Below, in pieces: positions 1,921 through 60,525 of a stretch of DNA of 64,000 bases. Position 1 is the stretch's first letter. The number at the start of each line of letters is the position of its first letter. Both the position numbers and the translations under genes were made by a program. Source of the DNA: Pseudanabaena sp. FACHB-2040. Its GTDB lineage: Bacteria; Cyanobacteriota; Cyanobacteriia; Phormidesmidales; Phormidesmidaceae. The stretch covers positions 62,001 through 126,000 of the forward strand of contig NZ_JACJQO010000022.1 of NCBI RefSeq assembly GCF_014696715.1, given 5' to 3'. Below the pieces are notes generated by a model. The model was not told the origin of the DNA. It did not search any database and saw only the letters and a list, made by a program, of their open reading frames with translations.

Positions 1921-2277
1921 CTAATACCGAGGCACCGAACGATCAACCACAGCACTATAAGCATCAATACCACCAGCCAGGTTCTTCACGTTGGTAAAGC
2001 CCTGCTGCGATAGCCACTGGCACATCTGGGCGGAGCGCATGCCGTGGTGGCACATCACAATGGTTTCTTTTTCGTTGTCAAAACGGTTGTGAATGCTCTC
2101 TGACCAGTCGGCAAATTCGCTTAGAGGCAGGCGTTCAAAGCCTTCAAGGGAAGCTAGCTCAAGCTCTGTCGGTTCTCGTACGTCGATTAGCTGCAGCTTA
2201 TCTCGCTCAGTCTGGAAGCGTTGGGCAAAGGTTTCGACGTCGATTTGCTCAAAGGGGACAGCAGGATTAGGAGACAT
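1921..2277 (-). CDS. Rhodanese-like domain protein
   Basis: This 118-residue protein is a single rhodanese domain. It shows the N-terminal LIDVREPTE motif (residues 30-38) and the active-site loop MCHHGMRS with catalytic Cys76, followed by the usual C-terminal GFTNVKNLAGGIDAY. Single-domain rhodaneses carry sulfur as a persulfide on the cysteine. The physiological acceptor cannot be told from sequence. It starts at ATG 2277 and is divergent from a Yfr1-like small RNA just upstream. It stands alone, with no obvious operon partner. Confidence 0.9.
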   Translation of the reverse strand: MSPNPAVPFEQIDVETFAQRFQTERDKLQLIDVREPTELELASLEGFERLPLSEFADWSESIHNRFDNEKETIVMCHHGMRSAQMCQWLSQQGFTNVKNLAGGIDAYSAVVDRSVPRY

Positions 2278-2397
2278 AATAATTTAGCCTAATCAATGAG
2301 TATAGTAAACTCGATTTATTTTAAGCAATTACAAAGTGATGACACAAGGCTGTCACATTGCGATCGCACCAAAGACACGCCAATTATTTACATTTAA

Positions 2398-2466
2398 ACC
2401 TAAGTAGAGAGTTCTACTCCTCACAACACCCATCGCCAAGGGGCTTTCCCCTTGGCATTTCTTTTG
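2398..2466 (+). ncRNA. yfr1: Yfr1-like small regulatory RNA
   Basis: The intergenic segment has the three-part layout of the cyanobacterial sRNA Yfr1. First comes a 5' hairpin (AGTAGA 2403-2408, loop GAGT, TCTACT 2413-2418). Next is an unpaired CA-rich stretch containing ACTCCTCACA (2416-2425), which matches the first ten bases of the conserved Yfr1 core ACUCCUCACAC. Last is a 9-bp terminator stem (2435-2443 with 2448-2456, loop CTTT) followed by ATTTCTTTT. The length of about 65-70 nt is also typical. The core differs by an extra A (CACAAC rather than CACAC). AT-rich sequence around 2385-2396 could hold the -10 box. Yfr1 is known to base-pair with outer-membrane porin mRNAs and is needed under stress. 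Confidence 0.68.
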
Positions 2467-2523: not shown

Positions 2524-3963
<1,440 letters not shown>

Positions 3964-58827: not shown

Positions 58828-60525
58828 ATGCAAACCCCCCCTTGGCCCATTTCTGCCTGGCGGCAGCTCAAGCGAGGAGAAATCACCTGTGAAGGCGCAC
58901 TTAAGCTGCTGTGCAACGAGCAGGGCAGCCTAAATCTGGCGCTGCTAGATGAAGAGGTTTGCAGCCGCTTTTTCCAGCTCTTTTCGGGGCAGGCCTTGCC
59001 GCCCGTGATCCCGCTGCTGCTGTGGCAAAACTGCTTTTACTTAGGCAGCCCAATGGCAGTTTCTGAGGAGGTGGTGCAGCAGCTGTGCGATCGCAGTCTT
59101 AGCGATATCCGTATCGTCCCTATCACCGCTAAGAGCTATCGCGCCTGGCACCACGGCCGCTCAGTCGACATGAGCCAAATCCACGCCAACCCGCTGCTAG
59201 ATCCCCTCACCGGGGAGCAGATGCAGGAAGACGTAGGAGAAACCACAGAAATCTTTCTAGCCAAAGCCGAAGGCCAGCTAGAGCGCATTAAAGCCGTTAT
59301 CTCTAGTGCCCTGCGACACCGAGCCAGCGACATTCACCTAGAACCTACCGAAGCTGGGCTGCGGGTGCGCTACCGCATCGACGGGGTACTGCGCAACATC
59401 ACTACCCTGCCGCTGGATATTGGTCGGCGAGTAGTCGTCGCCCTCAAAGTCATGGCCAGCATGGATATCGCCGACAGCCGCCGCCCCCAAGACGGCCGGA
59501 TCGGTGAGCAGTACGCCCTAGGCCAAGACGTGGGTCTAGACATGGATATGCGGGTCAGCACCCTGCCCTGCGTAGGCGGCGAAAAAGCCGTAGTCCGGCT
59601 GTTGCCCCGCCAAAATCCGTTTTCCACCATCGACAAGCTAGGCTTTCCGCCCAAAGCTTTGGCGACCTACAAAACCTGGCTACAGCAGCCCCAGGGCCTA
59701 ATTATCTTCACCGGCCCCACCGGCTCAGGAAAAACCAGCACGCTCTACACCAGCCTGCAGGAAATTGCTACCGAAGATGTCAATGTGGTGACGGTAGAAG
59801 ACCCAGTGGAGTACGTGCTGCCCTGCATTACCCAAACTCAAGTCAACGAAGCCGCAGGCATGACCTTTGCCGCCGGACTGCGGGCAATTCTCCGGCAAGA
59901 CCCTGACATCATCATGGTTGGGGAAGTGCGAGATCACGCCACCGCAGAGACCGCAGTTCGGGCAGCCCTAACCGGACACCTGGTATTTACCACCCTCCAC
60001 ACCAATGATGCCGTAGGAGCCATTCCCCGCATCAAAGACATCGGCCCCGACACTGGCTTAATTAGCGACGCACTGCTGGGAGTCGTGGCCCAGCGGCTGG
60101 TGCGCCGAGTGTGCCCCCACTGCACTGAACCAACCAGCCCCAATCCCCAAGGAATTAAGCTCTTGGGGCTCGACAAAAAGCAGCTGGCCCAAGCCAACTG
60201 GCAGAGAGGAAAAGGCTGTAGCCACTGTTTTCAGTCAGGCTACCTGGGACGGGAAGCGATTGTTGAACTGTTAGAGGTAGACGATCGCATCCGCGAAATC
60301 ATGTACGACGGCACCATGACCCAACTCCACCGCCACCTCCACAAAGTCGGCTTCATGTCTTTTCGGACTGCGGCAATTGAGAAGGTACTGACAGGCGTGA
60401 CTACCGTCGAAGAGGTGCTTAGAGTGCTGCCTCGCAGCGCCCTGATCCGACACACCAGCGGCGATTCTGACTACATTCAGCTCTTGCCCAATACAGCAGA
60501 AACATCAGCTGTCGCCGCCACCTAA
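58828..60525 (+). CDS. GspE/PilB-type secretion ATPase
   Basis: The 565-residue protein begins at ATG 58828. It has the family N-terminal domain, then a RecA-like core with Walker A GPTGSGKT (Lys302), an Asp box (VVTVEDPVEYVLP), Walker B (DPDIIMVGEVRD) and a His box (TGHLVFTTLHTND). A zinc-binding module follows with CPHC (C429, C432) and CSHC (C464, C467). These ATPases drive type IV pilus extension or type II secretion. It is shorter than the main cyanobacterial PilB, so it may be a PilB2-like paralogue. No pilus genes lie next to it. Confidence 0.9.
   Translation: MQTPPWPISAWRQLKRGEITCEGALKLLCNEQGSLNLALLDEEVCSRFFQLFSGQALPPVIPLLLWQNCFYLGSPMAVSEEVVQQLCDRSLSDIRIVPITAKSYRAWHHGRSVDMSQIHANPLLDPLTGEQMQEDVGETTEIFLAKAEGQLERIKAVISSALRHRASDIHLEPTEAGLRVRYRIDGVLRNITTLPLDIGRRVVVALKVMASMDIADSRRPQDGRIGEQYALGQDVGLDMDMRVSTLPCVGGEKAVVRLLPRQNPFSTIDKLGFPPKALATYKTWLQQPQGLIIFTGPTGSGKTSTLYTSLQEIATEDVNVVTVEDPVEYVLPCITQTQVNEAAGMTFAAGLRAILRQDPDIIMVGEVRDHATAETAVRAALTGHLVFTTLHTNDAVGAIPRIKDIGPDTGLISDALLGVVAQRLVRRVCPHCTEPTSPNPQGIKLLGLDKKQLAQANWQRGKGCSHCFQSGYLGREAIVELLEVDDRIREIMYDGTMTQLHRHLHKVGFMSFRTAAIEKVLTGVTTVEEVLRVLPRSALIRHTSGDSDYIQLLPNTAETSAVAAT

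Follow-up and report, generated by a model that had tools for sequence, protein, structure and literature searches.

A probable second Yfr1-motif small RNA gene with its own predicted promoter, distinct from Yfr1, in Pseudanabaena sp. FACHB-2040

Positions 2340-2466 of the window (the whole stretch of 64,000 nucleotides that was analysed) probably constitute a complete sRNA gene that includes its promoter (Table 1). The gene is probably a divergent ortholog of the Yfr1-motif sRNA that occurs, as a second one distinct from Yfr1, in Nodosilinea and some related genera, and its product would act by antisense pairing under the control of an activator. The assignment as a divergent ortholog was based on the match to a model of the Nodosilinea loci (R1), the rank of the site with a promoter-only matrix, and the retained spacing of the promoter repeats and the -10 box.

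Table 1. Predicted elements of the sRNA gene and its flanking genes (positions in the window)
Feature	Position	Strand	Basis and remarks
Rhodanese-domain protein gene	1921-2277	-	Pfam PF00581; divergent from the sRNA
TGACAC, repeat 1 of a putative activator site made up of three direct repeats of TGWCAY type	2340-2345	+	Gap-free alignment
TGTCAC, repeat 2, 11 bp downstream of repeat 1	2351-2356	+	Alignment with Nodosilinea loci, pattern search
AGACAC, repeat 3, degenerate, offset 33	2373-2378	+	Offset identical to that of Nodosilinea TGACAT
TACATT, predicted -10 box, offset 49	2389-2394	+	Offset and sequence as in most Nodosilinea loci
Predicted sRNA, ~65 nt	2401-2465	+	Fold and models; 5' end predicted from the position of the -10 box
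5' hairpin AGUAGA-GAGU-UCUACU	2403-2418	+	Fold; takes in ACU of the core
Core ACUCCUCACAACACCC	2416-2431	+	2416-2425 are the first 10 of the 11 nt of the Yfr1 motif
Intrinsic terminator (9-bp stem, U tract with an interruption)	2435-2466	+	Terminator scan, fold
chlN-like protein gene	2524-3951	-	Pfam PF00148; convergent with the sRNA

Read directly, the plus strand carries a 6-bp hairpin at the 5' side, then ACTCCTCACAACACCC, then a GC terminator of 9 bp, and AGTAGAGAGTTCTACTCCTCACAACACCCATC followed by GCCAAGGGGCTTTCCCCTTGGC-ATTTCTTTT lies in the gap between the start of the rhodanese gene and the end of the gene that we take to be chlN (a name based on the first-pass annotation and on context). 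No plausible plus-strand gene was found at the sRNA site, the only overlapping plus-strand open reading frame being of 40 aa with a TTG start. Inspection by eye showed no pairing between the core and the beginnings of the chlN or rhodanese mRNAs. A minus-strand sigma-70-like site (GTGTCA-16-TAAAAT, 2318-2345) lies ahead of the rhodanese gene. It overlaps the first sRNA promoter repeat, and the divergent genes may therefore share control. After chlN, an imperfect inverted repeat (AGAAACCGG...CCGGTTTCT) occupies 2485-2519; it is a dispersed repeat outside the sRNA, because many similar copies occur in the same genome and in distant cyanobacteria. When the intergenic region was used for a DNA similarity search, no ortholog emerged; the best matches were to this dispersed hairpin.

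The predicted fold of 2398-2466 was more stable than all shuffled sequences (-23.3 kcal/mol, z -4.8; 0 of 200 shuffles equally stable), with a stem at 2403-2408/2413-2418, a single strand, and a terminator at 2435-2456, the latter also selected by the terminator scan. The 5' hairpin alone was not significant (equalled or surpassed by 7.9% of shuffles), and it was absent from the Nodosilinea relatives. The unpaired probability was 0.77 to 1.0 for CCUCACA and 0.01 to 0.09 for the ACU of the core (2416-2418), which is predicted to be paired because it is used by the 5' stem; the pairing of these three core nucleotides counts against the preferred reading. Sixteen nucleotides remained unpaired between 2418 and 2435, but the 5' stem occupies the ACU of the motif. 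The U tract of the terminator was broken (ATTTCTTTTG). The architecture and length of Yfr1 had been attributed to the site in the first-pass annotation; a Yfr1-like plus-strand sRNA gene of ~65 nt with an altered core, in a real intergenic gap, was retained, and the use of ACU in the 5' stem and the interrupted U tract were added as corrections of detail.

The search for core variants covered 63 genomes of the family. Most genomes of one genus, identified as Nodosilinea by a scan of named genomes, contained a strongly conserved intergenic TGTCACAGGGTTGACATA...GTGACATA...TACATTAATTATTAATCGTTCACTCCTCAACACCCC with a GC terminator and a T run; the genus includes strains that go under the names Phormidium tenue, Tildeniella, Shackletoniella and Leptolyngbya. 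The core in Nodosilinea read ACUCCUCAACACC. Model R1 was built from 21 Nodosilinea loci with the window excluded; the invariance of the core in these loci is due to selection, because the core was part of the search pattern, and their promoter and terminator lay outside that pattern. The terminator stem of the Nodosilinea relatives covaried, with both sides changed in 6 of 11 pairs (0 of 500 shuffles). With R1, 22 of 26 Nodosilinea genomes scored more than 100 bits, and weaker candidates were obtained in three more genera (57.4 bits in genome G005, 32.3 in G006 and 27.1 in G010). R1 matched 2336-2466 of the window with 34.9 bits. The E-value was 4.2e-6 for the 64 kb and ~4e-4 when scaled to the genome; E-values from these short calibrations are rough. 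In the whole-genome R1 search the window site was not listed, apparently because it was not passed on by the first look, which scored only 56 of 1097 candidates there. Outside the promoter, core and terminator, the window and Nodosilinea sequences hardly aligned.

At the loci checked, the Nodosilinea element was divergent from a gene with an AIR carboxylase domain (PF00731), presumably larB, and often adjoined the gene of a small protein that matched no Pfam family; the G005 candidate was likewise beside larB. No larB match was found in the window, where the larB-side synteny was lost. The only other genome of the source genus (78% complete) gave no match for chlN, rhodanese or the sRNA element, and the fetched family members contained neither a CTCCTCACA core near chlN nor a Yfr1-like core with a terminator near rhodanese. 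In the G005 relative (contig C852) the core ACTTCTCACACCC breaks the anti-Shine-Dalgarno CUCCUC. The G006 relative (contig C127, minus strand, ~1420-1530) carried ACTCCTCACA, GCTCCTCATA and GCTTCTCACACC in tandem, followed by a hairpin and a T run, and with these three Yfr1-like motifs it is possibly a multi-site Yfr1-motif RNA.

The promoter was assessed alone, because the window and the Nodosilinea loci had both been picked by their core. The first repeat aligned to the conserved TGTCAC of the 21 Nodosilinea loci, and the alignment was gap-free from there through the -10 box, with the repeat offsets of 0, 11 and 33 and the -10 box at 49 all kept, although repeat 3 was degenerate. A matrix of 55 columns from the Nodosilinea promoters, without core or terminator, gave its highest score to window position 2340 among the 217,214 positions of the available sequence of this genome (10.5 bits, against 5.3 for the next), a score reached by 0 of 2000 shuffles. 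The other nine sites of the 10-mer ACTCCTCACA in this genome, including canonical Yfr1, scored below -11. With nhmmer, the promoter alone pointed to the same place as its best match, weakly (E 6.7), and the whole element gave E 0.0011. The pattern YGWCAC-N5-YGWCAY-N32-TA, whose degeneracy was set after the window had been seen and which is supporting only, occurred once in the genome, at the window promoter (reversed control pattern, three times). The shorter YGWCAY-N5-YGWCAY (expected 0.11 in 64 kb) occurred at the window promoter and once more, at 59777-59793, a pair that was rejected as lying within a GspE/PilB-like coding gene.

Response regulators of the OmpR/PhoB type that recruit RNA polymerase typically bind direct repeats with an 11-bp register of which the last stops 10 bp short of the -10 box, as it does here. 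Direct repeats of the TGWCA type with 11-bp spacing were also observed ahead of DUF4168 and PepSY-associated genes in several Nodosilinea genomes (five loci). These genes and the sRNA are a candidate shared regulon, and since similar repeats precede the DUF4168 and PepSY-domain genes, the sRNA may be part of a regulon of the envelope or stress type.

The 10-mer ACTCCTCACA had ten sites in the genome of 6.28 Mb, one of them the reverse complement of a Yfr2 gene, and a strong terminator followed at only two, canonical Yfr1 (-17.7 kcal/mol) and the window site (-16.6 kcal/mol; next best, -6.6 kcal/mol). These ten occurrences and the lack of significance of the 5' stem by itself would agree with a 10-mer lying by chance beside a terminator that belongs to some other transcript, in the absence of any sRNA gene; this is very improbable given an independent promoter match that ranked first among 217,214 positions, the E of 4.2e-6 with R1, and the absence of an upstream plus-strand gene that would need the terminator. 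Several candidates elsewhere were set aside. The exact 15-mer ACTCCTCACAACACC occurred in 1 other of 386 genomes of the phylum, with no terminator visible after it and probably by chance; three weak Rfam matches in the same genome did not contain the exact 10-mer; and several ACTCCTCAACACC matches in one genus (g3) had neither terminator nor promoter.

Yfr1 is defined by the 11-nt motif ACUCCUCACAC, which is perfectly conserved, and its classical gene order is guaB-yfr1-trxA (PMC2190773). Two stem-loops with 16 to 20 unpaired nt between them containing the motif, and an abundant transcript of 54 to 69 nt, were taken as further properties of Yfr1. Window positions 2416-2426 read ACUCCUCACAA, the adenine after ACUCCUCACA interrupting the 11-nt motif, as had been noted in the first-pass annotation. 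The Rfam Yfr1 model (RF01116) aligned to the window element over its full length with 19.1 bits, against a gathering cut-off of 38 bits, and no Yfr1 match was returned for the window at the gathering threshold. Canonical Yfr1 was found on contig C5 of the same genome with 56.8 bits, intact and flanked by GuaB-like and thioredoxin-like frames (named by eye from their translations), in the order guaB-yfr1-trxA. The earlier placement of Yfr1 between rhodanese and chlN was thus contradicted, the element there belonging by homology to the second lineage, for which conservation was best in Nodosilinea. Because of the 19.1 bits, the altered motif, and the place between rhodanese and chlN instead of beside guaB and/or trxA, the element departs from two defining properties of Yfr1 and from its usual position; judged by sequence, it is neither the Yfr1 of this genome nor a relocated Yfr1.

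The end-to-end alignment with the Rfam model (5' stem, core and terminator, 19.1 bits) and the identical order of the elements would also be expected of a duplicated and decaying paralog of canonical Yfr1 with a one-base change in its 11-nt core. Such an origin is quite unlikely, as the score was under the Rfam cut-off, the 5' stem was weak and consumed core bases, the promoter resembled that of the second sRNA of Nodosilinea whereas the best score of canonical Yfr1 with it was only -22.9, and intermediates joining the window element to the second lineage and its promoter were partly found. On comparison of the cores, the change is one of several within the second lineage and not simply that of a mutant Yfr1. 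The second lineage and Yfr1 may have an older common origin.

Additional RNAs carrying the Yfr1 motif have been described, namely MED4 Yfr10, Syr5, Yfr104 and Nostoc TSS 2515196r and 3750139f, and Yfr10-like RNAs have the motif alone in common, not sequence or synteny (PMC6778093). The window element is a predicted extra locus besides Yfr1, matching the motif at 10 of 11 positions, and its motif does not lie in a loop on a stem as in MED4 Yfr10. No Rfam cut-off was reached within the window by the Nodosilinea-type lineage, for which no name was found in Rfam or in the open-licence literature searched. It is unlikely that unrelated RNAs repeatedly acquired CUCCUCAC, with the likeness of the promoters due to a shared regulator only. 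Such convergence would agree with the Yfr10-like RNAs being alike in the motif alone (PMC6778093) and with the TGWCA repeats ahead of other Nodosilinea genes; against it, the offsets of 0, 11 and 33 and the -10 box at 49 were all retained, as were the GTTC preceding and the ACACC following the core. As a divergent member of the second lineage, the window RNA probably works like a Yfr1/Yfr10-type RNA while standing outside Yfr1 proper.

Yfr1 and Yfr10 act through the motif on mRNAs and Yfr2 (PMC6778093, PMC6974561); pairing of Yfr1 with GAGG-type ribosome-binding regions was shown in Nostoc and Prochlorococcus (PMC6974561, PMC6778093), and Yfr2 counteracted Yfr1 in an E. coli reporter assay (PMC6778093). 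Two Yfr2 genes (Rfam Cyano-1) were found in the genome, on contigs C17 and C5. Both have 5' motifs that could pair with the core of Yfr1, and one of them carried UGUGAGGAGU, the perfect complement of all ten window core bases. The length of core complementary to Yfr2 was eleven nucleotides in canonical Yfr1, ten in the window RNA and eight in the Nodosilinea RNA. Interaction energies were from simple duplexes and co-folds and do not demonstrate that the RNAs bind each other in vivo.

The transcription, regulator, targets and effect proposed for the window sRNA build on the observed sequence, homology, promoter spacing, covarying terminator of the relatives and complementarity to Yfr2. A DNA-binding activator, probably a response regulator of the OmpR/PhoB type because of the direct repeats in an 11-bp register, would bind the three TGWCAY repeats and recruit RNA polymerase to TACATT, and an RNA of ~65 nt ending at the GC hairpin would be transcribed. 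Single-stranded CCUCACAACACCC would then be available, with ACU added once the short 5' stem opens. CCUCACAACACCC / CCUCACA would pair with GAGG-rich ribosome-binding regions of mRNAs, and CCUCACAACACCC also with the complementary UGUGAGGAGU of Yfr2; with both kinds of pairing under activator control, the sRNA would be a signal-dependent input into the Yfr1/Yfr2 network. A broader and doubtful proposal is that a response regulator of the envelope type, whose repeats also precede the DUF4168 and PepSY genes, controls the RNA as a stress-induced, lineage-wide counterpart to Yfr1. The drift of the core (11, 10 and 8 nt against Yfr2) would shift the RNA from sponging of Yfr2 to an mRNA set of its own, and the Yfr1 network would be split into two arms, one constitutive and one inducible.

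The Yfr1 motif was previously described as perfectly conserved throughout the phylum, and additional RNAs with the motif as unconserved in sequence and place; here, the promoter of a second RNA was conserved throughout one genus and could still be recognised outside it, but the core changed. This natural series bears on which core bases serve the pairing with Yfr2 and which the mRNA targets, and on what signal drives the second arm.

In relation to known systems, the window element shares with Yfr1 (RF01116) its size, ACUCCUCACA, and the succession of a 5' stem, a CA-rich core that is unpaired, and a terminator. It differs from Yfr1 in the eleventh base of the motif (C in Yfr1, A in the element), in a core partly within a stem, in its weak Rfam score, and in place, promoter and lineage, with the true Yfr1 elsewhere in the genome. 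With the larB-linked RNA of Nodosilinea it shares promoter repeats of the same spacing, the GTTC-ACTCCTCA-ACACC elements and the terminator; the Nodosilinea RNA differs in the missing 5' hairpin, the core ACUCCUCAACACC and its other neighbours. The Yfr10-like RNAs are similar to it as extra Yfr1-motif RNAs besides Yfr1 with poor conservation beyond the motif. The window element has an altered motif; in MED4 Yfr10 the motif is in a loop atop a stem, whereas in the window it lies between two stems. As aligned here, the lineage differs from the known Yfr1-motif RNAs in its altered core and in a promoter conserved within and between genera.
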